Shown here one piece after another: positions 6,095-21,735 of a stretch of DNA of 64,000 nucleotides; positions within the stretch are counted from its first letter, which is position 1; each line of letters opens with the position of its first letter. The DNA is taken from contig NZ_UIHC01000014.1 of the NCBI RefSeq assembly GCF_900499075.1, forward strand, positions 1-64,000, given 5' to 3'. The translations under genes and the position numbers were made by a program. The notes under the pieces were generated by a model. It was not told where the DNA came from, did not search any database, and worked only from the letters and a program-made list of their open reading frames with translations. Origin of the DNA: Roseinatronobacter ekhonensis. GTDB lineage: Bacteria; Pseudomonadota; Alphaproteobacteria; Rhodobacterales; Rhodobacteraceae.

Positions 6095-7189
6095 ATGGAC
6101 AGTGAGCGCAAGACCTCGAAGGATGCGGCAGTAAGACGGAAGCTGGAAAAGCTGATCGCCGAAGGTCGACATGGCGACAGACTGCCCAAGGTGCGCGACC
6201 TCATGGTCGAATTCGCGACATCGCAAAGGGTTGTCCAAAGAGCGTTGGAGCCGCTGCTCGGACTTGGATTGATTGACGCGAAGCCGGGCGCGGGGTTGCG
6301 GATCGCACAGCACCAAGATGCACCCGAAACCGCCTATAGCGTTGATTGCCTGATCTTGTATCGGGACTCTGAAAGCAGGCTTGCACGGCGCTTGCTGATA
6401 GAATTGGTCAATCGCCTGCGCCGCAATGGCTACCGGGTCGAAATGAAAGGCTTTGACGACGAAGCCGATGTGCTGGACCATATAGATCGGCGCGGACGGG
6501 TTCGTTGCTGCCTGCTGCAAACCAATTTCGAGGTCGTTTCCGTCAGGTTCCTTGCCCGTATTCTGGAATGCGCCGATGCGCTGGTCGTGGATGGCGTGTC
6601 GGTCACCGGCATTGATGCGGATGTAATCGGCACCAACTGGCGCGAGGCGCTTTCGGTCGGATACCGGATACTGCAAGATCGCGGGCATTCGCGAATCGGG
6701 TTTCTTACCTCGGCACATGACGCACGCCAGATCGCGATGGCGCGGCGAGAGTTTCTACTTCTCAGCGGATGGGAGGGGCCGTCACCCCATCCCCGCCTGT
6801 ATACAGTCGGGGCGTTGCCGGGCTCCTACCGTCATGCCGATCTGGTCCGCGCCCTGCCCGACAGCGCGACCGAACCCGATGCCTCTACAGCCCTGATTGT
6901 CTGGGGGCTGGTCGAGGGACACATGCTGGACGCCGCGCTTCAAGAAAAACGCCTGAAGTCGGGGGTGGATGTCAGCCTTCTGCTGCTTGGCAGCGTGGAT
7001 GTGCCGTCCGAGCATGTCAGCCGGTTCGATATCGTCGGCAATTCGGACCGCGAAAAGCTCGACCTGTTCACCGAGGTTGTCACGGCACGTCTTGTGGGAA
7101 GCACAGAGCCGCCGCGCACGCATTACCTGCCGATCTATACCCATATGAACGGTTCTATTCAGCTTCTGGATGCCACAACGCGCGACTAA
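6095..7189 (+). CDS. GntR/LacI-hybrid transcriptional regulator (AraR-like architecture)
   Basis: A 364-aa regulator. Residues about 8-72 form a GntR-type winged helix (RRKLEKLIAEGRHGDRLPKVRDLMVEFATSQRVVQRALEPLLGLGLI, interrupted here only by normal spacing). From about residue 80 to the end is a periplasmic-binding-protein-like sensor of the LacI/GalR kind (GTNWREALSVGYRILQ, then RGHSRIGFLTS). This combination of GntR DNA-binding and LacI sensor domains is the architecture known from AraR of Bacillus. Sensors of this kind bind sugars or sugar phosphates. It lies directly upstream of, and on the same strand as, the sulfatase/sugar-import operon. A perfect inverted repeat just after its stop is the likely operator, so it is probably the local repressor, relieved by the imported sugar or a derivative. 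Confidence 0.85.
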   Translation: MDSERKTSKDAAVRRKLEKLIAEGRHGDRLPKVRDLMVEFATSQRVVQRALEPLLGLGLIDAKPGAGLRIAQHQDAPETAYSVDCLILYRDSESRLARRLLIELVNRLRRNGYRVEMKGFDDEADVLDHIDRRGRVRCCLLQTNFEVVSVRFLARILECADALVVDGVSVTGIDADVIGTNWREALSVGYRILQDRGHSRIGFLTSAHDARQIAMARREFLLLSGWEGPSPHPRLYTVGALPGSYRHADLVRALPDSATEPDASTALIVWGLVEGHMLDAALQEKRLKSGVDVSLLLLGSVDVPSEHVSRFDIVGNSDREKLDLFTEVVTARLVGSTEPPRTHYLPIYTHMNGSIQLLDATTRD

Positions 7190-7190
7190 A

Positions 7191-7228
7191 GTGAGTATAA
7201 GTTACGTTTTCACATGACTTATACTCAC
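7191..7228. promoter_or_regulatory. Perfect inverted repeat, candidate operator of the adjacent GntR-type regulator
   Basis: GTGAGTATAAGT at 7191-7202 and its exact reverse complement ACTTATACTCAC at 7217-7228, separated by 14 bases. It sits between the regulator stop and the oxidoreductase start at 7263. The arms are AT-rich with no T-run after them, so an operator is more likely than a terminator. Two palindromic arms with a short spacer fit a dimeric repressor or two bound dimers. Confidence 0.7.
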
Positions 7229-7262
7229 CTATCATCGACCCCAATGGATCGCAGGGGGCGTC

Positions 7263-8531
7263 ATGGCATCATCCAAGCCGGGCTTTGGAATAGCAATCAT
7301 CGGCGCGGGCGAGCGCGGTGTCTATTTCATCGGCAGCCGCATTGCCGAAGCGGCCTCTGACACGGGGCTTCGGGTGGTCGGCGTCTTTGACAGGTTGACC
7401 GACCGCGCGACTTTGGCCGCCGCGCATCTGAGCACGATTTACGAGTCTGGCGGACTGGACCATCAGGTGCAGGTCTTTGCCTCGCTTGAAGACGCGTTGG
7501 CGGACCCGTCGGTAGATCTTGTCATCGTGACCACCCACACTGACAGCCACCGCGAACCTGTGGAACGCGCCGTCGCCCATGGCAAACGGGTTTACCTGGA
7601 CAAGCCGATCTCTGTCACGCTCAGCGATGCAGAGGCGATCGCACGATCCGAACGCAGCGCGGGTCAGCCGATCATGATGGGCTTCACCCGTCGATATGAA
7701 CAACCATGGATCGAAGCTGTGAAAATCGCGCATGGTGGCCGTATCGGAACGCCGCGCATGGTGCTTTTGCGCTCGATTATCCCCTACACCCGCTATTTGC
7801 AGCTTTGGCATCGCAACGAGGCGCGGTCTGGCGGTGCCCTGAACGACAAGGGGTCGCACCATTTCGACGTTTTGAACTGGATCGCGGATGGCGCGCGGCC
7901 CGTCCGGGTCACAGCGACAGGCGGTGTGTCGGGCATCTTCGCCCCCGATCCGACCGCGCCCGCGCGCTGTAGCGAATGCGAACGCGATTGCCCTTACCGT
8001 CGCCATGAAACCCTGATCGACAAGTTCGAAGGCATCGGCCGCGTCCCGAATGATAGCTGGCGCACAGCGCATGCCGTTCATGACCGCAACGATACCTGCG
8101 TCTATCATCCGGGCGCGGATATAGACGACCATGCCGTTGTCACCGTGCAATATGACAGTGGTCTTGTAGCGACCCTATTCTTCGCGATTTTCGGACCTTG
8201 GGCAACGGATCAGGAAACTCTGGAAATCGTCGGCGACAGTGGGCGTCTGCGGATGGAGCGTCATAGCGGCGACATCGACCTTGTCGAAAACCATGGCCAC
8301 GCGCGCTCCGGGATTCAATTTCCAAATCCGGACCGCGCATCGTCGCATTACGGCGCCGACCGTGAACTTGTGCGCAAGCTGGAAAAATTCTTGCAGGGCG
8401 AAGTGCCTCCGGTGGGTGTGGCCGAGGGGCTTGCCTCTTTGCGACTGGTGACAGCCGCGCAGATCAGCCTGTCCGAAGGTGGCCGCCCGGTCGACCCGCG
8501 CGAGATGCAGGTCGAGGAGGCGGCCCAATGA
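7263..8531 (+). CDS. Gfo/Idh/MocA family NAD(P)-dependent oxidoreductase
   Basis: A 422-aa protein. The N-terminal Rossmann domain has the dinucleotide motif IIGAGERG (about residues 10-17) and the DKPIS motif (about 116-120), where most relatives have EKP with the catalytic Lys. The C-terminal alpha/beta domain contains FTRRYEQPW, the NDKGSHHFDVLNW signature and a cysteine cluster C-SE-C-ERD-C-PYR, probably metal binding. Members oxidise or reduce a hydroxyl of a sugar, inositol or sugar acid. It is the first gene of an operon that continues with a PHP-like hydrolase (4-base overlap), a sugar importer, a PfkB kinase and a sulfatase. It likely acts on the imported sugar in the cytoplasm; the exact substrate is not determinable from sequence. 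Confidence 0.88.
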   Translation: MASSKPGFGIAIIGAGERGVYFIGSRIAEAASDTGLRVVGVFDRLTDRATLAAAHLSTIYESGGLDHQVQVFASLEDALADPSVDLVIVTTHTDSHREPVERAVAHGKRVYLDKPISVTLSDAEAIARSERSAGQPIMMGFTRRYEQPWIEAVKIAHGGRIGTPRMVLLRSIIPYTRYLQLWHRNEARSGGALNDKGSHHFDVLNWIADGARPVRVTATGGVSGIFAPDPTAPARCSECERDCPYRRHETLIDKFEGIGRVPNDSWRTAHAVHDRNDTCVYHPGADIDDHAVVTVQYDSGLVATLFFAIFGPWATDQETLEIVGDSGRLRMERHSGDIDLVENHGHARSGIQFPNPDRASSHYGADRELVRKLEKFLQGEVPPVGVAEGLASLRLVTAAQISLSEGGRPVDPREMQVEEAAQ

Positions 8532-10072
8532 TCAATGCGTCCCTGCCAGAGCGTTTGTGCCCGCGCGCCACGGCTCTCGGGCTGCGGGCCTTTTATGGCG
8601 ACATCCACAACCATTCCGACCTGTCCTATGGCCATGGCGCCTTTCCCGACGCTTTGAAAAAGGCCGCGTTGCAACTGGATTTCGTGTCGGTCACAGGCCA
8701 TGCACATTGGCCCGACATGCCGGTGGATGACCCTTCGGTTGCCCACATTGTAGAGTTTCATGTGAAGGGGTTCGCCAAGCTGCGGGCCGCATGGCCGGAT
8801 CACTACGCAGTGCTGCGCGCGGCGGATGATCCCGGCACATTCACGGTCTTTCCGGGATATGAGATCCATTCTGCGGCGCATGGCGACTACACGATCGTTC
8901 TGGCCGACCTGGCGGACGGACCGCTAGAGTTGGCCGATGACCCCGCTGCATTGAAAGCGGCGCTGGATGCCCGATACGGCGCGCGCGCTTTCGCCTTTCC
9001 GCACCATATCGGCTACCGCACCGGCGCGCGCGGCATCAACTGGGACAGTTTCGACCCGGACCTGTCCCCTTTTGTCGAGATGCTGTCGATGCATGGTTGC
9101 GCAGAGCAGTCCGAAACCGAACGCGGCTACCTGCATTCCATGGGGCCGGTGGACGGGCAGTCCACCATGTCCCATGGGCTGGCGCTGGGGCATCGCTTCG
9201 GTATTGTGGGCAATACAGACCATCACAGCGGGTTTCCGGGGTCTTACGGGCATGGCCGCATGGCGCTATATGCGCCCGAACATGACCGCGATGCGTTCTG
9301 GACCGCGATGCGGGGCCGGCACACCAATGCCCTGACAGGCGACCGCATCCATCTGCTGGCGCAGATCGGCAGCAGCCTTCAGGGCGACTATGTTGCCGCA
9401 CAGGATGAAGCGACACTGGGGATAGAGGCCGTAGCCGGTGGCGCGGTCGACAGCATCGACGTAATCCGCAACGGACGGCTCTGGCACAGGATCAGCCCGG
9501 CAATCACCCCGCAGCCCATCGACCCCGAAAGCGCCGAGACCTTGATCCATCTGGAGATGGGCTGGGGCGCTCGGGGCCTGCGCCACGACTGGGACGGAAC
9601 GCTATGGCTGGAGGGTGGTGATATCCGCGCGGTCGAACCGCGCTTTCGCGGACCAGAGATCGTATCGCCTTTAGAAGGGCAGGATAGTGGCCACGCCATC
9701 CCGCAGATCAGCATGGACGGACACCGCGTTCGCTTTGCCGTGACCGCCGAGGCGAACCCCAACAACACAACCCCGGCCATGCAGGGACTGATGCTGCGCG
9801 CGGCCTTGACGCCGGATGCCGTTATCCAAGCATGTCTTTGCGGACAAGATATCCGCATACCGGCGGCGCGGCTGTCGCAAGGTGCCAAAAGCGGCAATCT
9901 TGGCCCGATCGACAGCCCCGCATGGCGGTTTCACCAGTTGCCCCGCATAGCGGACTGGCAATGGCACGGGGACGTGCCTTTGGGCGCGCTGTCCTCTGGC
10001 GAAACGATCTATCTGCGACTGAGGCAACTCAGCGGCCAGATGGCATGGACTTCACCGATCTTCGTTCGATGA
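8528..10072 (+). CDS. PHP-superfamily metal-dependent hydrolase-like protein
   Basis: A 514-aa cytoplasmic protein (no signal peptide). It has PHP-type metal motifs: GDIHNHSDLSYG (H27, H29), VSVTGHAHW (about residues 57-65), PGYEIHSA, FPHHIGY and GNTDHHSGFPGSYG (about 228-241). It resembles the DUF3604-type 'GDIH.HS' proteins found in polysaccharide and sulfatase gene clusters, then continues with a beta-rich C-terminal part of about 180 residues without a recognised motif. The function within this family is largely unassigned; a metallo-hydrolase or lyase acting on a sugar derivative is plausible. ATGA-type overlap with the preceding oxidoreductase gene and proximity to the importer place it in the same pathway. 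Confidence 0.72.
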   Translation: MINASLPERLCPRATALGLRAFYGDIHNHSDLSYGHGAFPDALKKAALQLDFVSVTGHAHWPDMPVDDPSVAHIVEFHVKGFAKLRAAWPDHYAVLRAADDPGTFTVFPGYEIHSAAHGDYTIVLADLADGPLELADDPAALKAALDARYGARAFAFPHHIGYRTGARGINWDSFDPDLSPFVEMLSMHGCAEQSETERGYLHSMGPVDGQSTMSHGLALGHRFGIVGNTDHHSGFPGSYGHGRMALYAPEHDRDAFWTAMRGRHTNALTGDRIHLLAQIGSSLQGDYVAAQDEATLGIEAVAGGAVDSIDVIRNGRLWHRISPAITPQPIDPESAETLIHLEMGWGARGLRHDWDGTLWLEGGDIRAVEPRFRGPEIVSPLEGQDSGHAIPQISMDGHRVRFAVTAEANPNNTTPAMQGLMLRAALTPDAVIQACLCGQDIRIPAARLSQGAKSGNLGPIDSPAWRFHQLPRIADWQWHGDVPLGALSSGETIYLRLRQLSGQMAWTSPIFVR

Positions 10073-10115
10073 AGTTGCACCACCAAGAAGACCATAATCA
10101 CGACAGGAGGTAACA

Positions 10116-11381
10116 ATGACACTGATAAGACATCTCATGACCGGACTGGCGGGCGCGGCCTTGCTGGCGACCGGCGCAATCGCCGAGGACCTGACGATCG
10201 TTCACGGGTCCGTCGGTCGAGACCAGGAAGTTCTGCGCAGCCAGCTTGACAAATTCGAAGCGCAGACGGGTCATACCGTCACGATCGTGTCGATGCCCGA
10301 AAGCACGACCGACCAGTTTGGCCAGTACCGGCTGTGGCTGTCCGCGCAATCGACAGATATCGACGTTTACCGGCTGGACGTGATCTGGGCCCCACAGCTC
10401 GCCGAGCATTTCGTCGATCTGACCGAGGCGACCGCCGATATCCGGGACCAGTTCATTCCCTCGACGCTAGAGGGCCAGACGGTTGACGGCAAACTCGTGG
10501 CCCTGCCGATGTTCATCGGCGCCCCTGCCCTTTATTACCGGCAAGATCTGCTGGAAAAATACGGTCAAGAGGTTCCAGCCACGTGGGCAGAGCTGACAGA
10601 GACGGCGGCACTGATCCTTGAGGGCGAGCGCGCTGAAGGCAACAGCGATTTGCAAGGCTTCGTGTTCCAGGGCGCTGCCTATGAAGGGCTGACCTGCAAC
10701 GCGATGGAATGGGTCGCAAGCTATGGCGGCGGTAATTTCGTCGAACCCGACGGGTCCATCGGCATCAACAATCCGCAAGCCGCAGAGGCGCTGACCCTCG
10801 CCGCGTCCTGGATCGGAACCATCGCGCCCGAAGGCGTGCTGAACTACAAAGAAGAGGACGCGCGCGGCGTGTTCCAGTCCGGCAATGCGATTTTCATGCG
10901 CAACTGGAACTACGCCTATGCGCTGGTGCAGGGTGATGACAGCCCCGTCAAAGGCATGGTCGGCGTCACCCAACTACCCTCGGGCGGAGAGGGGATGTCG
11001 TCTGCCGCAACACTGGGCGGCTGGGAACTGGGCGTCTCGAAATATTCCGAGCACCAGGAAGCTTCGATCGAGTTGATCAAGTTTCTGACCAACTATGAGA
11101 ACCAGAAGGAACGTGCGATTGTCACATCGCGCCCACCGACCCTGACCGCCGTGTATAACGACGCAGATGTGGCCGCAGAGCAGCCGTTCATCCCGCTGTG
11201 GAAGCCGGTGCTTGACGGGACGCTGGCGCGACCTTCGGCAGCCGCGAAACGCAAGTATAACGAGGCGTCTTCGCTATTCTGGACTGCCGTGCACAACACG
11301 CTGTCCGGCAATGGCGCGGCAGAAGAAAACCTGTCGCGGCTAGAGGCCGAACTGACGCGCCTGCGCGGTCCGCGCTGGTAA
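10116..11381 (+). CDS. Sugar ABC transporter substrate-binding protein (family 1)
   Basis: A 421-aa periplasmic binding protein. It has a Sec signal peptide (MTLIRHLMTGLAGAALLATG, cleavage after AIA) and a family 1 extracellular solute-binding fold: an early GRDQEVLRSQLDKFEAQTGH segment, DVYRLDVIWAPQLAEHFVDL, ALYYRQDLLEKYG, and a late GGWELGVSKYSEHQEASIEL. The pattern is close to ThuE-like (trehalose/maltose) binding proteins, but here it stands with a sulfatase, so the ligand may be a sulfated oligosaccharide or aminosugar. It has an excellent AGGAGGTAAC ribosome site ahead of the ATG. A 10-bp hairpin separates it from the permease genes, consistent with higher expression of the binding protein. 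Confidence 0.88.
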   Translation: MTLIRHLMTGLAGAALLATGAIAEDLTIVHGSVGRDQEVLRSQLDKFEAQTGHTVTIVSMPESTTDQFGQYRLWLSAQSTDIDVYRLDVIWAPQLAEHFVDLTEATADIRDQFIPSTLEGQTVDGKLVALPMFIGAPALYYRQDLLEKYGQEVPATWAELTETAALILEGERAEGNSDLQGFVFQGAAYEGLTCNAMEWVASYGGGNFVEPDGSIGINNPQAAEALTLAASWIGTIAPEGVLNYKEEDARGVFQSGNAIFMRNWNYAYALVQGDDSPVKGMVGVTQLPSGGEGMSSAATLGGWELGVSKYSEHQEASIELIKFLTNYENQKERAIVTSRPPTLTAVYNDADVAAEQPFIPLWKPVLDGTLARPSAAAKRKYNEASSLFWTAVHNTLSGNGAAEENLSRLEAELTRLRGPRW

Positions 11382-11395
11382 TCAGCCTTGATCCC

Positions 11396-11420
11396 TGTCC
11401 GGGCGGCCCACGCCCGGACA
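11396..11420 (+). other. Intercistronic hairpin after binding-protein gene
   Basis: TGTCCGGGCG / CGCCCGGACA, a perfect 10-bp stem with a 5-base loop, just after the SBP stop and before the permease ribosome site. There is no T-run, so it probably protects the upstream mRNA segment from 3' decay instead of terminating. Confidence 0.7.
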
Positions 11421-11438
11421 CCTTTGCGGAGCAGATCC

Positions 11439-12386
11439 ATGTCCAAGACCGTCCAGAAATCTCGCCTGTCGCGCAGCCGGACCCGGTCGGCTTGGCTGTT
11501 CCTTGCCCCGATGCTGCTGACGCTGGCCATTGTTGCGGCCTGGCCGCTGGGACGCACGATCTGGTTCAGCTTTACCGATGCGTCGCTGGACCTGATGGGC
11601 GAAGCGCGTTTCGTGGGTTTTCGCAATTACCTTGAATATGTCGCTTGGGGCGATGGCGAGGGCCAGTACTATGGCCTGCTGGCCGATGCCCGCTGGTGGC
11701 GCTCGGTCTGGAATACGATCCTGTTTGCCGTTGTCTCTGTCAGTTTCGAAACGGTCTTTGGCCTGATTATCGCGCTGGTGCTGAACCAGCAGTTCCGCGG
11801 TCGCGGTCTGGTACGCGCCGCTGTCCTTATCCCTTGGGCAATCCCGACCATTGTGTCGGCCAAGATGTGGGCATGGATGCTGCATGACCAGTTCGGCATT
11901 ATCAATGACATGCTGCAAACCATTGGACTGATCGCAGAGCCGATTGCATGGACCGCCTCTCCCGATACGGCGATGGTGGCGGTGCTGATGGTCGATATCT
12001 GGAAGACCACGCCCTTTATGGCGCTGCTTATTCTTGCCGGTCTACAAATGGTGCCCGGCGATATTTACGAAGCCGCAAAGCTGGACGGCGTGCCCCCATG
12101 GCGGGTGTTTCGCAAGATCACGCTGCCGCTGATCATGCCTGCCGTGCTGGTGGCCGTTGTGTTCCGCGCGCTCGACGCGCTGCGGGTCTTCGATATCGTC
12201 TATGTTCTGACACCCAACACCGATGCAACGCGGACGATGTCGGTCTTCGCCCGCGAGAACCTGTTCGATTACGACAAGTTTGCCTATGGCTCGGCGGCGT
12301 CGACGCTGCTGTTTCTGGTGATCGCACTGATCACGATCACCTTCATCATGGCGACCCGGATGGATCTGGAGGGCAAACGCTCATGA
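11439..12386 (+). CDS. Sugar ABC transporter permease (MalF-type)
   Basis: A 315-aa inner membrane permease from the ATG at 11439, which has GCGGAG upstream; an in-frame TTG at 11388 lies inside the intercistronic hairpin region and is rejected. It has six predicted transmembrane helices, starting with SAWLFLAPMLLTLAIVAAWPLGRTIWF. The conserved EAA loop that contacts the ATPase reads YEAAKLDGVPPWRVFRKITLPL (shown here as one motif, about residues 207-228). It is the first of two permeases and overlaps the next gene by 4 bases (ATGA). Confidence 0.9.
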   Translation: MSKTVQKSRLSRSRTRSAWLFLAPMLLTLAIVAAWPLGRTIWFSFTDASLDLMGEARFVGFRNYLEYVAWGDGEGQYYGLLADARWWRSVWNTILFAVVSVSFETVFGLIIALVLNQQFRGRGLVRAAVLIPWAIPTIVSAKMWAWMLHDQFGIINDMLQTIGLIAEPIAWTASPDTAMVAVLMVDIWKTTPFMALLILAGLQMVPGDIYEAAKLDGVPPWRVFRKITLPLIMPAVLVAVVFRALDALRVFDIVYVLTPNTDATRTMSVFARENLFDYDKFAYGSAASTLLFLVIALITITFIMATRMDLEGKRS

Positions 12387-13213
12387 AACCGCCCCTTTGG
12401 CAAAGCATTGGCTTTTACATCCTTGTCGGCGTTATCGTCCTTCAGGCGCTGTTCCCCTTCTATTACGCGATCCTTACATCACTGGAAGACGGTCAGGCCC
12501 TGTTCGAGGTGAACTATCTGCCGCGCGCCCTGAACCTAGCCAATTATCAGGCCATGCTGTCGGGTGGCGTGTTCGGCAAGCAGATTTTGAATTCGGTCTT
12601 TGTCGCCACTGTTGTGGTCATCCTGTCACTGTTTCTGGCCGTTACAGCCGCCTATGCGCTCTCTCGTATCCGGTTTCGCGGGCGTGGGTTGCTGCTGTTG
12701 ACGGTGCTTTCCGTGTCCATGTTTCCCCAGATCGCCGTGCTGTCCGGCCTGTTCGAAGTGATCCGCTATTTCGGCCTGTTCAATTCGCTCTGGAGCCTTG
12801 TCTTCTCCTACATGATATTCACCCTGCCCTTCACGGTCTGGGTTCTGACAACCTTCATGCGCAACCTTCCGATAGAAATAGAGGAAGCTGCGATCATGGA
12901 CGGGGCCTCGTCTTTCACCATCATCCGCCGCGTGTTCCTCCCGCTGATGTGGCCCGCGATGGTGACGACGGGGCTTCTGGCCTTCATCCACGCTTGGAAC
13001 GAGTTTCTTTTCGCGCTCACCTTCCTGTCGACCGACAGCCAGCGCACGGTGCCCGTGGCCATCGCGCTTATTTCGGGGCGCAGCGAATTCGAAATCCCTT
13101 GGGGCAATATCATGGCCGCTTCGGTCATCGTGACGCTGCCACTGGTGGCGCTGGTTCTGGTGTTTCAACGCAAGATCGTGTCCGGCCTGACCGCCGGCGC
13201 CGTGAAAGGATAA
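12383..13213 (+). CDS. Sugar ABC transporter permease (MalG-type)
   Basis: A 276-aa permease starting at the ATG at 12383, which overlaps the stop of the previous gene (ATGA). A longer reading frame upstream overlaps the MalF-type gene and has no support. It has six hydrophobic segments (first: GFYILVGVIVLQALFPFYYAI). The EAA motif is EEAAIMDGASSFTIIRRVFLP, about residues 171-191. It forms the channel dimer with the upstream permease. Confidence 0.9.
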   Translation: MKPPLWQSIGFYILVGVIVLQALFPFYYAILTSLEDGQALFEVNYLPRALNLANYQAMLSGGVFGKQILNSVFVATVVVILSLFLAVTAAYALSRIRFRGRGLLLLTVLSVSMFPQIAVLSGLFEVIRYFGLFNSLWSLVFSYMIFTLPFTVWVLTTFMRNLPIEIEEAAIMDGASSFTIIRRVFLPLMWPAMVTTGLLAFIHAWNEFLFALTFLSTDSQRTVPVAIALISGRSEFEIPWGNIMAASVIVTLPLVALVLVFQRKIVSGLTAGAVKG

Positions 13214-13216
13214 TCC

Positions 13217-14224
13217 ATGGCGACAGTCGAACTGAAAAACGTGTCCAAATCCTACGGCACTGTCGAGGTGCTGCGCGACATCAACCTGGAACTGGAGCAG
13301 GGCGAATTCGTTGTGTTCGTAGGGCCCTCCGGGTGCGGAAAATCGACCTTGCTGCGGATGATCGCGGGGCTTGAAGACATCACCGGGGGTGAACTCCGGA
13401 TCGACGGCCAGCCCATGAACGACGTGTTGCCCGCAAAACGCGGGATCGCAATGGTGTTCCAGTCCTACGCGCTATACCCGCATATGACGGTGTTCGAAAA
13501 CATGGCCTTCGGGCTGGAACAGGCCCGCTTGAACAAGGCCGAAATCCGCGAACGGGTCGAGAAGGCCGCGAAGATGTTGCAGATCGAAGCGTTCCTTGAT
13601 CGCAAGCCAAAGCAGCTTTCGGGCGGGCAGCGGCAGCGCGTTGCCATCGGGCGCGCGATCACCTGCGACCCTCGGGTCTTTTTGTTTGACGAGCCCCTCT
13701 CGAACCTCGACGCGGCGCTGCGCGTCGACACGCGCCTGGAAATCGCCAGCCTTGGCAAAAGACTGCCGGACACCACGATGGTCTATGTCACCCACGATCA
13801 GGTCGAAGCGATGACCCTTGCGGACCGAATTGTTGTGTTGAACGGCGGAATCGTCGAACAGGTGGGCACCCCGATGGAGCTATATGAGCGTCCCGCCAGC
13901 CAGTTTGTGGCAGGCTTTATCGGCAGCCCGCGGATGAATTTCCTGAATGGCACCGTGGCCGCCGCGCACGGGGCCGAAACCTACGGCATCCGGCCAGAAC
14001 ATATCAGCCTGTCGCCTGACGCTGGCGACTGGCGCGGACGCGTGATCCTGACCGAACGGCTGGGCAGCGATACATTCGTTCATGTCGAAGTCGACGGGGT
14101 CGGGCCAGTCAATGTCCGGATAGAGGGCCGCTCAGAAGTGCACGCCAACGACGAAGTCCATCTTACACCCGATCCGGCCTCTGTTCATCTTTTCGATGCG
14201 AAAGGACGGCCGATACCGGGCTGA
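13217..14224 (+). CDS. Sugar ABC transporter ATP-binding protein (MalK/UgpC-type)
   Basis: A 335-aa ATPase. Walker A is GPSGCGKST (about 37-45), the Q-loop is in [13 protein letters not shown], the ABC signature is [14 protein letters not shown] (about 133-146), Walker B is [12 protein letters not shown] and the switch His is in VTHDQVEAM. The C-terminal about 100 residues form a short TOBE/OB regulatory domain (GIRPEHISL). ATPases of this group energise family 1 sugar importers. It follows the permease gene with only 3 bases between, so the importer is complete. Confidence 0.92.
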
Positions 14225-14285
14225 CGAAGACCATGAACACAGGCTTGAAACCGCCCAACACTGCCGCACCCAGACAGGTCGCGTA

Positions 14286-15233
14286 ATGACCACGACACGA
14301 CCCATCGCCGTGATCGGAAACGCCAATCTGGACCTGATTGGCGGCGTCTTGTCCGACTGGCCCGACAGGGGCACAGAGGTTTTTCTGGACCATGCCGACA
14401 GCCGTGTCGGGGGATCGGCAGCCAATACGGCGCTTGTGTTGCAACGTCTGGGCGCGCGGTCCGGGCTGATCGCCTCTGCGGGGACGGACACGGTCGGCCA
14501 GATGATCGCGGACGCGTTCACAGGTCCGCTTGACCGGATCGCACGGATTGCGGGGCCGACCTCTGTCAGTTTCGGCGTGCTGCATCCCGGATCAGAACGA
14601 AGCTTTTTTTCGACCCCCGGGCATCTGGACAGCTTCGACGTGGGGCAGGTTCGGTCCGGGTTGAAAGACTGGCCTTTGAACGGGGCATATGCGCTTGTTT
14701 CCGGCGCGTTTGCCATGCCGGGGCTTACCGAGGATTGCCTGTCACTGATGGCTGATCTGAAGGCACAGGGCGCGCGGGTGGCCATTGACCCCGGCTGGCC
14801 CGGTGACGGCTGGACCGTCGCGATGCGCGGCCTGATGCAAGACTGGATCGCACAAAGCGCGCTTGTCTTGATAAACGACAAAGAGCTGTTGGGCATGACG
14901 GGTGCCGACACACTGAAAGCCGCAATCAGCGAGATCGCACCAACCCTTGCAAAAGAAACCGTGCTCGTCGTCAAATGCGGGCCGAATGGCGCCATTGCGT
15001 TGGCGAATGACCAGAGTTTTGCCGCCAGCAGCCCAAAGGCCGAGATTTTTGACACGATCGGCGCAGGCGATGCGTTCAATGCCGGATACCTTGCTGCGGC
15101 GCAGGCCGGGCACGATGTGGCGTCGTGCCTTTCAGCGGGTTGCGCGGTTGCAAGCGCGGTAATCCGCGCCTTCCCGCGCGCCAAGACTGCGCTGCACCTG
15201 CCGGAGCTTTTATCGCAAGGAACCAGCGAATGA
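14286..15233 (+). CDS. PfkB-family carbohydrate kinase
   Basis: A 315-aa ribokinase-fold kinase from the ATG at 14286 (MTTTRPIAVIGNANLD). An upstream in-frame start overlaps the ATPase gene and adds a non-family leader. It has the N-terminal IGNANLDLIGG motif, the GGSAANTALVLQRLGA substrate-binding region, and the C-terminal PfkB signature DTIGAGDAFNAGYLAA with the catalytic Asp (about residue 256). It phosphorylates a sugar or nucleoside with ATP in the cytoplasm. In this operon it most likely phosphorylates the desulfated or oxidised sugar. Its stop overlaps the sulfatase start (ATGA). Confidence 0.88.
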   Translation: MTTTRPIAVIGNANLDLIGGVLSDWPDRGTEVFLDHADSRVGGSAANTALVLQRLGARSGLIASAGTDTVGQMIADAFTGPLDRIARIAGPTSVSFGVLHPGSERSFFSTPGHLDSFDVGQVRSGLKDWPLNGAYALVSGAFAMPGLTEDCLSLMADLKAQGARVAIDPGWPGDGWTVAMRGLMQDWIAQSALVLINDKELLGMTGADTLKAAISEIAPTLAKETVLVVKCGPNGAIALANDQSFAASSPKAEIFDTIGAGDAFNAGYLAAAQAGHDVASCLSAGCAVASAVIRAFPRAKTALHLPELLSQGTSE

Positions 15234-16621
15234 ACATTCTTCTGATGATCGCAGACGACCTTGGCCGCATGGCAGGCTGCTACGGCGAAACTGCGATCCG
15301 CACGCCCAATATTGATGCGCTGGCGGCCCGCGGCACGCGGTTTGACATGGCTTTCACCTCAACCGCGTCCTGTTCGGCCAGCCGGTCGGTGATCTATACG
15401 GGCCTGCACACGCATGAGACCGGTCAATACGGACTGCACCACGACCACCATCATTTCATGACCTTTGCGGATGTGCCCACCGCGCCCCGCCTGCTGGCAG
15501 AGGCCGGCTATCACACCGGCATTATCGGCAAAGTGCATGTCGGCCCGTCAGAGGTTTACCCATGGCAGCACCGAGAGGAGAGCGGAACGCGTGATGTCGG
15601 TTGGGTGGCGGATCGGGCCCGCGCCTATTTCGGCGACCGCGCCGCCGACCGTGACCCGTTTTTCCTGACCATCGGGTTTGTCGACCCGCACCGCGACGAA
15701 ACACGCGGCGGCTTCGGCAATAACGCGTTCGGGGCGCTGGACCCCGTTTTCCCCGCAGATGCGGTCCACGTGCCGCCCTTTCTGCCCGACCTGCCAGAGG
15801 TGCGCGACGAGCTTGCCGCCTATTACCGGTCCGTCCACAGGCTTGACCGGGGTGTGGGCTTGGTCCTTGACGCGCTTAGCGCCGAGGGGCTTGCCGATGA
15901 TACGCTTGTGGTTTTCCTGTCCGACAATGGCGCACCGTTCCTGAACTCTAAAACCACCTTGTTCGATGCAGGGGTGCATTTGCCGTTAATCATGCACCGT
16001 CCGGGCCAAAAGACGGGCGTTGCAAACCCCAATCTTGTTTCCTTCACCGATCTGTTGCCGACCTTTCTGGATGTCGCCAATGCGCCTGCGACGCCCGGAA
16101 AACGCAAAGGCCGGTCCTTGTTGCCGATTCTAGAGCGGGCCGACCTGCTGCCGGATTGGCAGATCGTCTTCGGATCACACACGTTTCATGAGGTGACGAA
16201 TTACTGGCCGACGCGGTTCCTGCGCACACCGCGCTACAAGTATCATCGCAACGTCGCGTGGCAGTTGGATTTCCCATTTTCCGGCGATCTCTACGGGTCG
16301 TTGTCTTGGCAGGGCATTCGCAGAACCGACCCGGTGATGATCGGCCAGCGACCGCTGCGCAACTACCTGCGGCGACCGCCGGAAGAGCTATACGATCTGC
16401 AAACCGACCCGCAAGAAGTGCGCAACCTTGCAGATGCGCCCGAGCATGCTGACCGTCTGGCATCGTTCCGCCAGCAGATGGAGGCTTGGCAACGCGACAC
16501 CCGCGACCCTTGGCTCTATCGTGACGGGGTTTCGGTCATGGCGGTCGAGCACCATCTGGCGCATGGGCTGACCCTGCCGGACAGGTTTGATCTGGACCCT
16601 GACAACCCTCGCGACCGCTAG
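15230..16621 (+). CDS. Type I sulfatase, sulfamidase (N-sulfoglucosamine sulfohydrolase)-like
   Basis: A 463-aa formylglycine-dependent sulfatase. D9-D10 (MIADDLGRM) and the later SDNGAPF supply the calcium site. C48-S-A-S-R52 is the C-X-A/P-X-R motif whose Cys is oxidised to formylglycine. Several stretches closely recall human SGSH (heparan N-sulfatase): QYGLHHDHHHF, GIIGKVHVGPSEVYP, FVDPHRDE and FGSHTFHEVTNYWPTR. It has no signal peptide, so it acts in the cytoplasm on an imported sulfated sugar, in contrast with most bacterial polysaccharide sulfatases, which are exported. The start at 15230 overlaps the kinase stop (ATGA); a longer frame running back into the kinase gene is rejected. A sulfatase-maturating enzyme is not in the window. 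The subfamily assignment is from recalled similarity. Confidence 0.85.
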   Translation: MNILLMIADDLGRMAGCYGETAIRTPNIDALAARGTRFDMAFTSTASCSASRSVIYTGLHTHETGQYGLHHDHHHFMTFADVPTAPRLLAEAGYHTGIIGKVHVGPSEVYPWQHREESGTRDVGWVADRARAYFGDRAADRDPFFLTIGFVDPHRDETRGGFGNNAFGALDPVFPADAVHVPPFLPDLPEVRDELAAYYRSVHRLDRGVGLVLDALSAEGLADDTLVVFLSDNGAPFLNSKTTLFDAGVHLPLIMHRPGQKTGVANPNLVSFTDLLPTFLDVANAPATPGKRKGRSLLPILERADLLPDWQIVFGSHTFHEVTNYWPTRFLRTPRYKYHRNVAWQLDFPFSGDLYGSLSWQGIRRTDPVMIGQRPLRNYLRRPPEELYDLQTDPQEVRNLADAPEHADRLASFRQQMEAWQRDTRDPWLYRDGVSVMAVEHHLAHGLTLPDRFDLDPDNPRDR

Positions 16622-16764: not shown

Positions 16765-16797
16765 GAATAGATTTTGAGAGTTGGGAGGACGAATCAC

Positions 16798-17862
16798 ATG
16801 CAGGCGACAGAAACTGCGGAACCCTCGGCATTGCCCGAACGGGTGCGTATTGTGGATCTGGCCGCACAGCTTGGCCTGACCAAAGGCACGGTCAGCCGGG
16901 CCTTGAACGACCACCCCGATATTTCTGACCGCACGCGGCTGCGTGTTCGCAAGGCCGCCGAAAAGCTGGGTTACAGGCCCCTAAGCCATGCGCAGGCTAT
17001 TCGCACGGGCCGGGTTCGGTCGCTTGGGTTGGTGTTGCAGGTCAACGAGCATGACGCACATCGCCCGTTTGTTGCAGAGTTTCTCGCGGGATTGTCGCAA
17101 GCCGCCTCTGCCGAGGATTGGACGCTTACCGTCGCCACCGCAGGCAGCGATGAGCAAACGCTCGACCTGCTGGACCGCCTGACGGTCGAGAAAAAGGCCG
17201 ATGGGTTCATCCTGCCCCGGACAAAGCTGCACGATCCGCGCATTGATTTCCTGCGCACACGGGGCGTGCCTTTCGTTCTCTATGGCCGCACAGAAGATGC
17301 GGGTGGCTGCGCATGGTTCGATATCGAAAGCGAAAAATCCATCGAGGATGCGGTCATGCTACTGGCGGGTCTTGACCATAAGCGCATCGGCTTTGTGCCC
17401 GGCGCTGACGGTTATTCCTATGCCAAGCTGCGCCATGACGGCTACCTGGCAGGGCTGGCCCGCAGCGGGTTGTCGCATGACACGCAATTGATCGCGCCGC
17501 CCGCCATGGGGCGCGATGCAGGCGCGGCCGCGGCCGCAATCCTTCTGGACCTGCCGCACCCGCCCAGCGCAATTGTCTGTTCTGTCGATGCTGCGGCTTT
17601 GGGCGTCTATGACGCCGCGCGCCACCGCGGCCTGAAGATCGGCACGGACCTGTCGGTCATTTCCTATGACGGCATTCCCGAAACCACGCTTCTGGACCCG
17701 CCGCTATCGACCTACCGGGTCGACACGCGGGCGGCAGGAGCGCGGCTGGCTGAACTGTTGATCAAACGGTGTCGCGGGGCACCACCGGAAGACTTACGAG
17801 AATTGGGTCGCGCGGCGTTTCGGTCGCGCGGCTCGCACGGGGTTGCCCCTGCCAAGGCGTAA
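16798..17862 (+). CDS. LacI-family transcriptional regulator (AglR-like position)
   Basis: A 354-aa regulator. The start ATG at 16798 has GGGAGG at 16783-16788; an upstream TTG is less likely. The N-terminal LacI helix-turn-helix reads VRIVDLAAQLGLTKGTVSRAL, followed by NDHPDISDRTRLRVRKAAEKLGY with the hinge helix. The rest is a type I periplasmic-binding-protein sensor (SLGLVLQV..., DHKRIGFVPG, DLSVISYDGIPE). It precedes the SBP gene by 35 bases on the same strand and has a perfect palindrome in its own promoter. It probably represses the downstream alpha-glucoside-like import operon and responds to the imported sugar. Confidence 0.9.
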   Translation: MQATETAEPSALPERVRIVDLAAQLGLTKGTVSRALNDHPDISDRTRLRVRKAAEKLGYRPLSHAQAIRTGRVRSLGLVLQVNEHDAHRPFVAEFLAGLSQAASAEDWTLTVATAGSDEQTLDLLDRLTVEKKADGFILPRTKLHDPRIDFLRTRGVPFVLYGRTEDAGGCAWFDIESEKSIEDAVMLLAGLDHKRIGFVPGADGYSYAKLRHDGYLAGLARSGLSHDTQLIAPPAMGRDAGAAAAAILLDLPHPPSAIVCSVDAAALGVYDAARHRGLKIGTDLSVISYDGIPETTLLDPPLSTYRVDTRAAGARLAELLIKRCRGAPPEDLRELGRAAFRSRGSHGVAPAKA

Positions 17863-17897
17863 CCCACCGAACTACGGCACCAAAGGGAGAGAGAAGA

Positions 17898-19244
17898 ATG
17901 ACACGTTTCACCAAATTGATGACAGGGACGGCACTTGCGTTAAGCATGTCGGCGCTGGCGGTTTCGGCCGACACCATCCGGTTCTGGACAACCGAGGAAC
18001 AGCCCGAACGACTGGCCAAACAAGAAGAGATGGCGGCACAATTTCTGGAAATGACCGGGGTCGAGGTCGAGGTGATCCCGGTGACGGAAAGCGATCTGGG
18101 CACGCGCGCGACGGCAGCTTTTGCCGCTGGCGACCTGCCGGATGTGATTTACCACACCTTGCAATATGCGCTGCCATGGGCCGAAGCCGGAATTCTGGAT
18201 ACCGACGCCGCGACAGAGGTGATCGAAGATCTGGGTGTGGACACATTCGCCCCCGGCGCGATCTCTATGGCGGCGCATGAGGGAAACACCGCATCGGTTC
18301 CGGTTGATGGCTGGACGCAAATGATCATCTATCGCAAGGACCTGTTCGAGGCCGCCGGGCTGGAGGCACCTTCAAGCTATTCGAACGTGCTTGCGGCGGT
18401 CGAGGCACTGCACAACCCGCCGGAAATGTACGGCTTCGTTGCGGCCACCAAAGTGGACGAAAACTTCATGAGCCAGGTTCTGGAGCATGTGTTTCTGGCC
18501 AATGGCGTGTCGCCGGTCGGGCCGGACGGGTTTCAGCCGCTGGACGAGGCGAAAACCATCGAAGTGCTCGAATTTTACAAGGCGATCGCCGAAGCCTCGC
18601 CACCCGGCGACCTGTACTGGGACCAGTCGCGCACGCTGTATTTCAGCGGCAACGCGGCGATGATCATCTGGTCGCCCTTCATTCTGGATGAACTGGCCGG
18701 TCTGCGCGACAGCGCCCCGCCCACCATCAATGACGACCCGACATCTTCGGAACTGGCCAGCAAGACCGGCATCGTGACCAATTTCGCCGGGCCGTCCAAC
18801 CCCGATGGCGCGGCTTGGGGCGATGTGCGCTATTTCGGGATCAGCGCCGATGCCGATACCGACGCCGCGATGGAGTTCGTCAAATTCTCGGTCGATGCGG
18901 GCTACGGCCAAACCTTGTCCATCGCGCCAGAGGGCAAGTTTCCGGTACGCGCGGGCACAGCCGATGAGCCTACCAAGTTCAAAGAGCTTTGGGCAACGCT
19001 CCCGGTTGGCGTAGACCGCAAGGCCCCGTTGGGCGACCTGTATGACGCCGCGATGATCGACGAAATCGTCGGCGGTCTGGATGTGGCGCAGCGTTGGGGC
19101 GTGGCCGAAGGGCAGCTTGCGCTGGCATCGAAGATGATCAACAGCCAAGCCATCAACCGCGTGGTGCGCGACTATATCGACGGTCGGGTAGATGCCGCCG
19201 CAGCCGTAGCCGCGATGAATGCGGAATTGTCCGCCATCGAGTAA
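17898..19244 (+). CDS. ABC transporter substrate-binding protein, AglE-like family 1
   Basis: A 448-aa periplasmic protein. It has a Sec signal peptide (MTRFTKLMTGTALALSMSAL, cleavage after VSA) followed by DTIRFWTTEEQPERL, and a family 1 binding-protein fold. The true start at 17898 has AGGGAGAGAGAAG upstream; a longer frame running through the regulator end is rejected. The order SBP, two permeases, glycoside hydrolase, ATPase matches aglEFGAK of rhizobia, so the ligand is probably an alpha-glucoside or related compound. A 9-bp hairpin follows the gene. Confidence 0.87.
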   Translation: MTRFTKLMTGTALALSMSALAVSADTIRFWTTEEQPERLAKQEEMAAQFLEMTGVEVEVIPVTESDLGTRATAAFAAGDLPDVIYHTLQYALPWAEAGILDTDAATEVIEDLGVDTFAPGAISMAAHEGNTASVPVDGWTQMIIYRKDLFEAAGLEAPSSYSNVLAAVEALHNPPEMYGFVAATKVDENFMSQVLEHVFLANGVSPVGPDGFQPLDEAKTIEVLEFYKAIAEASPPGDLYWDQSRTLYFSGNAAMIIWSPFILDELAGLRDSAPPTINDDPTSSELASKTGIVTNFAGPSNPDGAAWGDVRYFGISADADTDAAMEFVKFSVDAGYGQTLSIAPEGKFPVRAGTADEPTKFKELWATLPVGVDRKAPLGDLYDAAMIDEIVGGLDVAQRWGVAEGQLALASKMINSQAINRVVRDYIDGRVDAAAAVAAMNAELSAIE

Positions 19245-19250
19245 TCCAGA

Positions 19251-19277
19251 CAGGGCCGCCCAACAGCGGCGGCCCTG
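19251..19277 (+). other. Intercistronic hairpin after binding-protein gene
   Basis: CAGGGCCGC at 19251-19259 pairs with GCGGCCCTG at 19269-19277 around a 9-base loop. It lies between the SBP stop and the permease ribosome site (CAGGAG). No T-run follows, so mRNA stabilisation is more likely than termination. Confidence 0.7.
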
Positions 19278-19297
19278 ATCCTGTCAGGAGAATTCCG

Positions 19298-20527
19298 ATG
19301 TCAGCCGTTCCACCCAACGGAACCACGCCGCTTGCGCGGCGCGAGGCCCGGCTTGCCTGGGGCTTGCTTGCGCCGACCCTTGTCAGTGTTGCGCTGGTTG
19401 TGGTGCTGCCGTTGCTGGCGATCTTCTGGATCAGCTTCAAGCCCATCGGGCTGGCCGACCTGCGCCCGCCAGCGCCCATTTTACGCGAGAGCGTGCGCGG
19501 TGCGGGCGATGATTTGCGGGTCGAATACCGGCTGCGCAATTCCAGCCAGGACATCGAGGTCACGGGCGTTACCCTGTCCGACACATTGCCCGAGGGCGTC
19601 GCCTTGCGCGGCGACCTTCCCGCGCCCTGCACCCTGAGCGGGCGTGACCTGACCTGTCCTATTGGAACGATCGAGGGCGGCTATAATGAGCGCATCATTA
19701 TCCCGCTTGTCGCAGAAGATGCCGACCGCACGGAAGAGCTGGCCGAATCCAGCCTGCCCACCGTTTCCGGCCAATCCGACAGCATCCTGACCAATACCAC
19801 GTTTACGCTAGATAATTTCGCGCGCATCTTCGACGGCGACGAATTTTGGGGCGTGTTCGGCGTGACCCTGTTCTACACGGTGTTCGGAACAATCGGCGCC
19901 TTGAGTGTTGGCCTGTTCGCGGCGCTTTTGCTGAACAAATCCTTTCGCGGGCAGGGCATTTTGCGCGGGCTATACCTGTTTCCCTATGTCGCCCCGATCA
20001 TTGCCGTCGCCTTTTCATGGCTGATCCTGTTCGATCCGTTCTCCGGCTCTGCCAACGCTTTACTGATCCAGATGGGCGTGACGAACGGCGCGATCAATTT
20101 CTTCGGCGAACGCCCGTTGGCGCTGATCATGGTCACGGTGTTTGAGATCTGGCGCTATTTCCCGCTGTCCTTCCTGTTCATCCTTGCGCGGATGCAGGCC
20201 ATCGACACGGACATGTATGAGGCCGCCGATATGGACGGCGCATCCCCGTTCCAGAAATTCTGGTATCTGTCGCTGCCACAGCTACTGGGCATTCTAAGCG
20301 TGTTGTTCCTGCTGCGCTTTATCTGGACCTTCAACAAGTTCGACGACATCTTCCTGCTGACCGGCGGAAACGCGGGCACGCGCACCCTGACCGTCAATGT
20401 CTATGAACAGGCCTTTGCCGTGTCGAATATCGGTGCGGGTGCCGCTGTTGCGGTGGTCATCTTCCTGTGCTTGCTCAGTTTCTCGGTGTTCTTCTTCAAG
20501 TTCATGAGCCGGGAGGACGGGCTATGA
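19298..20527 (+). CDS. ABC permease (AglF/MalF-type) with DUF11-like domain in first periplasmic loop
   Basis: A 409-aa permease, longer than the roughly 300-330 usual for AglF. TM1 is at about 24-47. Residues about 53-165 form a soluble insertion before TM2 (about 187-210). The insertion has the pattern of a DUF11 / conserved-repeat beta-sandwich: LRVEYRLRNSSQDIEVTGV, LSDTLPEGV, then two cysteines C111 and C120 around CTLSGRDLTC, followed by PIGTIEGG. The remaining core is standard, with an EAA loop YEAADMDGASPFQKFWYLSLP. The insertion would sit in the periplasm, where MalF of E. coli has its unrelated P2 loop that contacts the binding protein. The start at 19298 has CAGGAG upstream; the gene overlaps the next by 4 bases. 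Confidence 0.87.
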   Translation: MSAVPPNGTTPLARREARLAWGLLAPTLVSVALVVVLPLLAIFWISFKPIGLADLRPPAPILRESVRGAGDDLRVEYRLRNSSQDIEVTGVTLSDTLPEGVALRGDLPAPCTLSGRDLTCPIGTIEGGYNERIIIPLVAEDADRTEELAESSLPTVSGQSDSILTNTTFTLDNFARIFDGDEFWGVFGVTLFYTVFGTIGALSVGLFAALLLNKSFRGQGILRGLYLFPYVAPIIAVAFSWLILFDPFSGSANALLIQMGVTNGAINFFGERPLALIMVTVFEIWRYFPLSFLFILARMQAIDTDMYEAADMDGASPFQKFWYLSLPQLLGILSVLFLLRFIWTFNKFDDIFLLTGGNAGTRTLTVNVYEQAFAVSNIGAGAAVAVVIFLCLLSFSVFFFKFMSREDGL

Positions 20528-21735
20528 CGCACATCCGTCGCGGATACCTGACCGCCGCCGTCATTGGTGCGCTCTGGACGGTGGTGATCGCCACCAGCGT
20601 TGCCATAACCATGAGCTTTGCCACAGGCGATGCGTTCCGCCCGTCCGTGCTGCAAGCTCTGGTTATGGGCGCGGCTTTGGGCATGGTGCTGCTGCGCGTG
20701 CCGCAACGCGGCTTTGCCATGGCTGCCGCGGTGGCGCTGTTTGCCCTCACGCTTGGGGCCGGGTTCGGGCCGATGCTGACAGACGGTGTCGGCCCGGTAG
20801 CGCTTGGAATTGCGGCACTGCTGGCTGGGTTGGGCACGGGCTGGTCGCTGCATGTCATGTTTGCCGAAATCCGCCCCGGCACCCTGACCCGGCACGAATT
20901 CGAGGATGCGGTGATCCGTTTTCTGACGGGCTTTGGCTATATCTTCTTCACCGCGATCGTGGCGATCCCGTTCTATGTCATGGTGATGACCAGCCTCAAG
21001 AACCAGCAACAACTGGTCGCCAACCCGCTCGATTTCTCGCTGGATCTGACACAAGGCTGGGGCCTGTTCCGGTCATATTACGAGCTTTTTGCCAGCTATA
21101 ATTTCGGCACCTACATGGTGAACTCGCTGTTCATCTCTGTGATGACGGTGGCCATCACACTGCTGTTCAGCGTGCCGGGGGCTTATGCCGTGGCGCGCCT
21201 GCGCTTCAAGGGGCAGGCGGTTTTCTCGCGCTCCATTCTGCTGATTTACATGGTGCCGATCATCGTGCTGGCGTTGCCCATTTATATCGGCTTTTCCATG
21301 ACCGGGCTGCGCAACACAATTTTCGGCATCTTGCTGATCTATCCGGTCACGACCATCCCGGTCGCGCTGTATATGCTGCAAGGCTATTTCCGGGGCCTGC
21401 CGCAAGAGGTGGAAGAAGCCGGGCTGATGGACGGGCTGAACCGGCTGCAAGTGATCTGGAAGATCACCCTGCCGCTGGCGTTACCGGCGCTCGCAAGCGT
21501 GTCGCTGTATGTCTTCATGATCGCGTGGAACGAATTCCTGCTTGCCTTCATGCTGCTGGACGACCCGTCCAAATTCACCCTGACGCGCGGCATTGCTTCG
21601 CTCAATTCCTCCGAGATCCCGCGCCAGCACCTTATGGCGGGCGCGGTCGTTGCCACGGTGCCGATCATGGCGCTGTTTCTCGGGCTGGAACGTTTCATGA
21701 CCAAGGGCCTGACCGCAGGCTCTGTTAAAGGATGA
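20524..21735 (+). CDS. ABC permease (AglG/MalG-type) with extra N-terminal membrane helices
   Basis: A 403-aa permease, starting at the ATGA overlap with the preceding gene. Residues 1-115 contain about four extra hydrophobic segments (about 10-31, 42-58, 63-83, 90-112) before the usual MalG-like core, which begins near residue 134 (FLTGFGYIFFTAIVAIPFYV). The core has the EAA motif EEAGLMDGLNRLQVIWKITLPL (about residues 298-319). Extended N-termini are known for some AglG-type permeases, but four additional helices is notable. It pairs with the DUF11-containing permease. Confidence 0.87.
   Translation: MTHIRRGYLTAAVIGALWTVVIATSVAITMSFATGDAFRPSVLQALVMGAALGMVLLRVPQRGFAMAAAVALFALTLGAGFGPMLTDGVGPVALGIAALLAGLGTGWSLHVMFAEIRPGTLTRHEFEDAVIRFLTGFGYIFFTAIVAIPFYVMVMTSLKNQQQLVANPLDFSLDLTQGWGLFRSYYELFASYNFGTYMVNSLFISVMTVAITLLFSVPGAYAVARLRFKGQAVFSRSILLIYMVPIIVLALPIYIGFSMTGLRNTIFGILLIYPVTTIPVALYMLQGYFRGLPQEVEEAGLMDGLNRLQVIWKITLPLALPALASVSLYVFMIAWNEFLLAFMLLDDPSKFTLTRGIASLNSSEIPRQHLMAGAVVATVPIMALFLGLERFMTKGLTAGSVKG

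Follow-up and report, generated by a model that had tools for sequence, protein, structure and literature searches.

Two described bacterial systems come closest to the gene cassette reported here, which lies in a 64,000-nucleotide stretch of Roseinatronobacter ekhonensis (contig NZ_UIHC01000014.1, positions 1 to 64,000; the window) and ends in a relative of the human sulfatase SGSH. Phep_2826 of Pedobacter heparinus, which we liken to the cassette enzyme by description and not by sequence, is a bacterial S1_8 N-sulfamidase that acts on N-sulfoglucosamine (GlcNS), but it is periplasmic, and its locus serves heparan utilisation and also encodes S1_9, S1_11 and GH88 enzymes (PMC10154612). Streptobacillus moniliformis likewise pairs a glycosaminoglycan importer of the ABC type for sulfated sugars (Smon0120-0123) with a sulfatase predicted to be cytoplasmic (Smon0126), but that system is tied to lyases, GH88 and uronate metabolism, and it binds hyaluronan and chondroitin disaccharides (PMC5430744). 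The initial annotation had set the cassette against exported, TonB-linked sulfatases; the contrast is fair but not absolute, given the Streptobacillus system and other ABC-linked sulfatase genes. The cassette presents a familiar architecture, an importer with cytoplasmic enzymes, around an unusual enzyme. Its probable task is to bring a small sulfated amino sugar into the cell and to desulfate it there with an enzyme related to that of human Sanfilippo A disease, two features of which depart from the textbook view. If true, this would be a compact route for sulfated amino sugars in Alphaproteobacteria, unlike the exported route based on polysaccharide utilisation loci. No description of the cassette was found in a literature search that had most subscription papers outside its reach.

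In the window, nine genes at 6095-16621 share one strand, and neighbours either overlap by 4 bases or are separated by short gaps, which suggests a single transcript and hence one predicted operon. The gene set, strand and coordinates proposed in the initial annotation stood, and Pfam and NCBIfam matches together with gene spacing bore out a full sugar importer, a PfkB kinase, a Gfo/Idh-type protein (GFO) and a PHP-like hydrolase (PHP) in this operon. Gene order and its conservation were read directly from the sequence, as were protein families, active-site residues, an inverted repeat and the distribution of deaminase candidates. We compared the window with 20 related loci, 18 from genome contigs and two from plasmids (H1 and H2, the two matches above 60% identity); the contig scan picks up close relatives only, so the spread given here is a lower bound. 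The order regulator, GFO, PHP, sugar-binding protein (SBP), permeases, ATPase, (kinase), sulfatase was shared by 17 of the 20 loci, from Rhodobacterales and Rhizobiales, with L006 lacking the kinase and L017 having broken frames; the regulator was present in 17 of the 20. Two cut-off loci (L014 and L016) agreed in gene order over the part present, and the truncated L019 held only the kinase and sulfatase, behind unrelated genes, with the ATPase and SIS-domain gene of that genome on another contig. Hosts included Tropicimonas, Thioclava, Oricola, Roseitalea, Martelella and Oceaniradius as well as plasmids of Marinovum and Salipiger, and many of these genera are presumably marine. The cassette sulfatase is rare: a scan of 295 genomes from the window's family found it in five at E ≤ 1e-70, the window's own among them, and at E ≤ 1e-60 the own genome was the sole match among 398 of the phylum. 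Outside the cassette, a survey of open reading frames of at least 120 amino acids in flanks of at most 10-12 kb found only ABC-transporter genes (up to nine loci) and one gene cluster (L004, L005, L014) recurring in at least three loci. The few recurrent neighbours, the patchy spread and the plasmid carriage suggest that the cassette moves as a unit.

For the protein alignments, L017 (broken frames) and L019 (truncated) were dropped throughout, L014 and L016 for the genes they do not hold, and L006 for the kinase. The 19 carrier genomes counted do not include L017 or the two plasmid hosts; G020 is the same genome as L002/G677 and enters the counts once, and G080 is the genome of L004. Three loci showed peculiarities of their own. 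L017, named Marinicella sp. W31 and thus presumably gammaproteobacterial, carries a cassette in which several frames are broken and the best sulfatase segment shows 74% identity; in identity pattern and operator it resembles the Martelella copies, and the entry may be a mislabelled or error-rich assembly. In genome G207 the cassette is split, the ATPase and SIS gene lying on contig C137 (L062) and the kinase and sulfatase on L019, through either rearrangement or misassembly of this metagenome-assembled genome (MAG). On the Marinovum plasmid pMaD8 (L020), genes annotated as sulfoacetaldehyde acetyltransferase, membrane protein, phosphate acetyltransferase and cupin occupy 1-2594 directly upstream of the cassette, placing two organosulfur modules side by side.

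The sulfatase matched Pfam Sulfatase (127 bits, cut-off 25) and SGSH_C (50.1 bits, cut-off 29.3). A phmmer search of the PDB returned human SGSH first (4mhx, E = 2.9e-85, 290 bits over residues 2-434 of 463), far ahead of the S1_8A enzyme 9bb9 (131.7 bits); the family profile gave 357 bits for SGSH against 173 for the next, and identity over aligned columns was 42.3% to SGSH and 25.9% to S1_8A. SGSH is thus the closest solved relative by a wide margin, as the SGSH-like stretches noticed at first had indicated, and because SGSH is listed under S1_8 (PMC5066984), the protein is tentatively placed as S1_8-like. The 19 cassette sulfatases grouped together (100/99) in a tree of 28 sequences; SGSH and relatives from Flammeovirga, Persicobacter and Catenovulum came nearest, on long branches with unsafe joins.

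At the active site, nine of the ten positions tabulated for SGSH (PMC4014121) were retained, as were the residues that match its substrate contacts His368 and Asp401; the SGSH residues with kept equivalents are Asp31, Asp32, Cys70, Arg74, Lys123, His125, His181, Asp273, Asn274, His368 and Asp401, where Cys70 is the formylglycine residue and appears as S in the PDB-derived sequence. The Cys, the Arg, the metal ligands and the sulfate-binding His and Lys were invariant in all 19 cassette sulfatases. The published S1 motif, [CS]-x-[PA]-x-R (PMC5066984), was matched as CSASR by 16 of the 19, the window protein among them; the other three (L016, L020, L021) read CSGSR and fail the [PA] position. 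Unlike human SGSH, the window enzyme lacks a signal peptide, and at motif position +2 it carries Ala where SGSH has Pro. Its start is placed at ATG 15230, which overlaps the kinase stop codon (15231-15233) and replaces GTG 15125, taken from a mechanical list of open reading frames; read from there, the first residues are MNILLMIADDLG and already belong to the first sulfatase strand. In L012, L002 and L011 the open frame extends upstream of the match by just 4, 9 and 11 codons, too few to encode a signal peptide; the starts of the relatives were picked by script as those nearest to the match, so that their agreement is no independent proof. The sulfatase is therefore predicted to be cytoplasmic, as first proposed.

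An SIS-domain gene between the ATPase and kinase was intact in L008, L012, L016 and L021 and also stood beside the ATPase in G207; it was frameshifted in L003, reduced to a 67-codon remnant in L020 and missing from most loci. In the window, the stop of a 17-codon reading frame overlaps the kinase start (ATG 14286) as TAATG, the same junction as between SIS gene and kinase in L012, and this frame may, speculatively, be an SIS remnant. The best NCBIfam models for the three SIS proteins scanned were NagB-II and GlmS, all below their cut-offs; none scored above 47.7 bits with the NagB-II model NF046059, whose cut-off is 430, and these proteins are not assigned to that family. Positions of a Glu, a His and a C-terminal Lys in the NagB-II of the window's own genome are retained in the SIS protein, and these positions have catalytic roles in GlmS.

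A candidate glucosamine-6-phosphate deaminase was found in all 19 carrier genomes examined. Thirteen had a free-standing NagB-II match (E ≤ 5.3e-79, at least 266 bits), four (G080, G239, G683, G690) had NagB-I matches of at least 229 bits, and the remaining two, G207 and G686, had neither but held an intact SIS gene. In the window's family, NagB-II (E ≤ 1e-60) was found in 73 of 248 genomes and NagB-I (E ≤ 1e-55) in 21 of 248, with both in two, giving a background of 92/248 if both scans covered the same 248 genomes, a set that includes the carriers with a match G000, G020, G080 and G239. Against this background, finding NagB-I or NagB-II in at least 17 of 19 carriers has a binomial P = 3e-6, and in at least 9 of 11 Rhodobacterales-like carriers, counting the MAGs G680 and G681 named only Alphaproteobacteria, P = 0.003; for both nagB-less genomes to be among the four that hold an intact SIS gene, P is 0.035, all three values treating related genomes as independent. 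These results lend indirect support to the amino-sugar theme of the initial annotation: the SIS gene and the deaminase pattern point to a glucosamine product, and hence to N-sulfoglucosamine.

The SBP scored 449 bits by profile against the 6jai group, 341 against MalE3, 257 against SmoF and 246 against a trehalose/maltose-binding protein. We take 6j9w/6jai to be the Thermus alpha-glycoside-binding protein; the SBP resembles the 6j9w/6jai, MalE3 and SmoF binders by sequence profile, and its ligand class is drawn from these. GFO and PHP were kept in all 17 loci spanning that part (G207 outside the count), and this constancy, set against the loss of the kinase from L006 and of the SIS gene from most loci, suggests that both proteins act on the imported molecule itself. 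Together with the maltose/trehalose-type SBP, their retention makes an alpha-glycoside the likelier import than free GlcNS or another monosaccharide. By sequence, profile and fold, the best PDB matches of GFO were GH188 entries, with a slim profile margin (77.8 bits for GH188 against 77.4 for an aldose-aldose oxidoreductase) and 21-22% identity in the fold alignments (model pLDDT 76); inositol dehydrogenases came close behind. GH188 enzymes are NAD-dependent sulfoquinovosidases with assigned residue roles (PMC10755693); GFO keeps their Lys107 and carries Glu189-x3-His193 as Asp195-x3-His199. PHP scored 41.2 bits against the CehA/McbA model NF038032 (cut-off 80) and is not counted as a member, while H27, H29, H58, E112, H159, D231 and H233 were invariant in 17 sequences and the His/Asp motif pattern was kept. 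Its AlphaFold model was poor (mean pLDDT 63), and Foldseek returned no PDB match at E ≤ 0.001.

Taken together, these results lead us to propose, with a little less than even confidence, a catabolic and probably mobile cassette for a small sulfated amino-sugar glycoside, most likely a GlcNS-type alpha-glycoside, with an S1_8-like cytoplasmic sulfatase of the Lys type. The substrate, the order of steps, the roles of GFO and PHP, the mobility and the maturation of the sulfatase are all deduced from such comparisons. In this scheme, the binding protein would take an alpha-glycoside bearing sulfated glucosamine, with N-sulfoglucosamine as the likeliest form, and the whole molecule would enter the cytoplasm through the ABC transporter. 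There the glycoside would be opened or processed by PHP and by GFO, the latter oxidising C3 in the manner of GH188 and GH109 enzymes, the SGSH-like sulfatase would take off the sulfate, and PfkB would phosphorylate the freed glucosamine. Glucosamine-6-phosphate would then be converted to fructose-6-phosphate by the cassette SIS protein where present, and otherwise by the NagB-I or NagB-II of the cell. A narrower version, in which an N-sulfated glucosamine alpha-glycoside, perhaps marine, is imported intact, opened by an oxidoreductive Gfo/Idh glycosidase with PHP and desulfated in the cytoplasm by a Lys-type sulfamidase that, in hosts lacking FGE and anSME, would gain its formylglycine from some other maturase, would be new to the literature searched; we consider it unlikely in this full form.

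Several observations weigh against the proposed pathway. The position of SGSH Arg282 is Lys241 in 19/19 cassette sulfatases, the window's included, and that of its salt-bridge partner Asp399 is Ser351 in 19/19. No FGE (PF03781) match and no anSME (TIGR03942) match were found in the window's own genome, estimated as 100% complete. No glycoside hydrolase of a classical family occurs in the cassette, and the L006 operon has lost its kinase. GFO does not retain Tyr136, the C2 residue of GH188, or its sulfonate residues Arg166 and Lys172; the author's reading of the alignment to ArSqgA places Arg143, Ile172 and Tyr178 at these positions. GFO was accordingly rejected as a GH188 member and, with dehydrogenases scoring closely, may simply be a dehydrogenase. 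A Lys that stands three residues before the Glu in NagB-II is missing from the SIS protein, none of 20 NagB-II matches passed the model cut-off of 430 bits, and the NagB-I of G080 (229 bits) fell just below its cut-off of 236.9. The deaminase argument is indirect: its background was taken from the window's family, although some carriers are Rhizobiales, the completeness of G207 is only 83%, and nagB has a further role in the use of N-acetylglucosamine (GlcNAc). By eye, the NagB-II of the own genome sits in an apparent GlcNAc operon.

The change at Arg282 speaks for the first alternative. Arg282 has been presented as what separates SGSH from O-sulfatases, which have Lys, and the Lys form was left open there, an Arg282Lys mutant being planned (PMC4014121). 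Among 15 sequences compared, Arg at this position occurred only in human SGSH, and all eight other non-human, non-cassette sequences aligned also carry Lys. The substrate may then be an O-sulfated alpha-glycoside, such as a 2-O-sulfated glucoside or an O-sulfated glucosamine glycoside of algal or osmolyte origin, and the enzyme an SGSH-like O-sulfatase, a reading that we hold as a doubtful but serious competitor. The surroundings of two relatives agree with it: the Flammeovirga protein (40% identical, with a signal-like N-terminus) adjoins genes for a GH2 and a GLAA-B-type (presumably GH110-like) beta-helix glycosidase, and the Catenovulum protein lies near alpha-L-rhamnosidase and GH27 genes. 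So do the maltose/trehalose-type SBP and the next operon of the window, which resembles an importer of glucoside-type solutes. However, O-sulfation alone leaves the SIS gene and the deaminase candidates in 19/19 carriers unexplained unless the sugar is an amino sugar, and the best full-length solved relative is an N-sulfatase. Sulfotrehalose is kept within this alternative, since the deaminase pattern favours an amino sugar. N-sulfoglucosamine therefore stands as the best single guess, gaining from that pattern, with Lys241 keeping an O-sulfate in play. The cassette bears on the question of whether N-sulfate cleavage persists in an SGSH-like enzyme that has Lys in place of Arg282.

GlcNS is also a heparan constituent, and the cassette could scavenge heparan or heparin disaccharides freed by other bacteria, for which the Streptobacillus ABC system with its sulfatase (PMC5430744) and the action of the Pedobacter S1_8 enzyme on GlcNS (PMC10154612) are published precedents. 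This is improbable, as no GH88, lyase or uronate gene was found in the cassette or as a recurrent neighbour, and partner sulfatases are missing: in the own genome, PF00884 matched only the window sulfatase and one protein that by eye is EptA-like, which we take to be a phosphoethanolamine transferase.

In the carrier genomes, PF03781 matches reached at least 200 bits in 8/19, any match was found in 13/19 and none in 6/19; anSME was sought in the own genome only. The least probable alternative, and a very improbable one, is that this alkaline-phosphatase-superfamily protein is no working formylglycine sulfatase, being unmodified or another esterase or phosphonate hydrolase, in keeping with the missing FGE and anSME, the six carriers lacking PF03781 and the Gly at motif +2 in 3/19 outside the published pattern (PMC5066984), but at odds with the catalytic, metal-binding and sulfate-binding residues invariant in 19/19. 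Because E. coli matures sulfatases to formylglycine with an enzyme that is itself unknown (PMC5870055), missing known maturases prove nothing, and their absence here is a puzzle and not a refutation. The cassette points to hosts in which no maturase can be recognised for the sole S1 sulfatase. On Deinococcus deserti plasmid 3 (L030, 2541-10137) and a Streptomyces plasmid (L028, 1782-10649), further ABC-importer operons combine a sulfatase and a ROK regulator with a neighbouring FGE-family gene; import followed by desulfation may be more widespread, there with its own maturase.

Regulation probably works through a 35-bp inverted repeat before GFO, GAGTATAA-N18-TTATACTC, which was matched in 0 of 100 shuffles and is a probable operator. 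Within 160 bp before GFO, 17 of 18 sequences (the window and 17 loci) fitted it with at most 2/15 mismatches at the same spacing; L002 alone failed, with 5 mismatches and, by eye, a one-base change in spacing. In a control, 11 of 1800 random stretches of the same loci fitted equally well, some of them probably overlapping the site itself. The GntR/LacI hybrid nature assigned to the regulator held for its GntR part, which passes the Pfam cut-off, but the LacI-like C-terminal domain reached only 21 bits for Peripla_BP_3, under the cut-off of 26.5. The coordinates of all cassette features are listed in Table 1.

Table 1. Predicted features of the sulfatase cassette in the window.
Feature	Position	Strand	Evidence
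REG, regulator: GntR-type helix-turn-helix and LacI-like effector domain	6095..7189	+	Pfam GntR 34.4 bits (cut-off 27)
Probable operator, inverted repeat between REG and GFO	7192..7227	.	both orientations match
GFO, Gfo/Idh/MocA-type NAD-dependent protein; dehydrogenase or oxidoreductive glycosidase	7263..8531	+	Pfam
PHP/CehA-type metallohydrolase	8528..10072	+	Pfam DUF3604 25.9 bits (cut-off 20.4)
SBP, periplasmic sugar-binding protein, alpha-glycoside/maltose type	10116..11381	+	profile comparison
ABC permease 1	11442..12386	+	Pfam BPD_transp_1 73 bits
ABC permease 2	12383..13213	+	Pfam BPD_transp_1 57 bits
ABC ATPase, UgpC/MalK type	13217..14224	+	NCBIfam NF008653 467 bits (cut-off 432)
Possible SIS-gene vestige, 17 codons, speculative	14233..14286	+	by-eye reading
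PfkB-family sugar kinase	14286..15233	+	Pfam PfkB 137.6 bits
SULF, predicted cytoplasmic SGSH-like S1 sulfatase, motif C48-S-A-S-R52, Lys241	15230..16621	+	Pfam, phmmer, alignments

Directly downstream, at 16774-24043 of the window, lie genes for a LacI regulator, a binding protein, two permeases, the first of them carrying a long insertion, an MGH1-like glycosidase and a UgpC-type ATPase. The glycosidase matched PF22422 with 356 bits and the glucosylglycerate hydrolase model with 346 bits, below the cut-off of 550, and the operon looks like one for uptake of a compatible-solute glucoside. Farther on, the minus strand at 26642-29058 carries an NtrC-type regulator and HypB (TIGR00073, 281.5 bits, over its cut-off), possibly part of a hydrogenase cluster.

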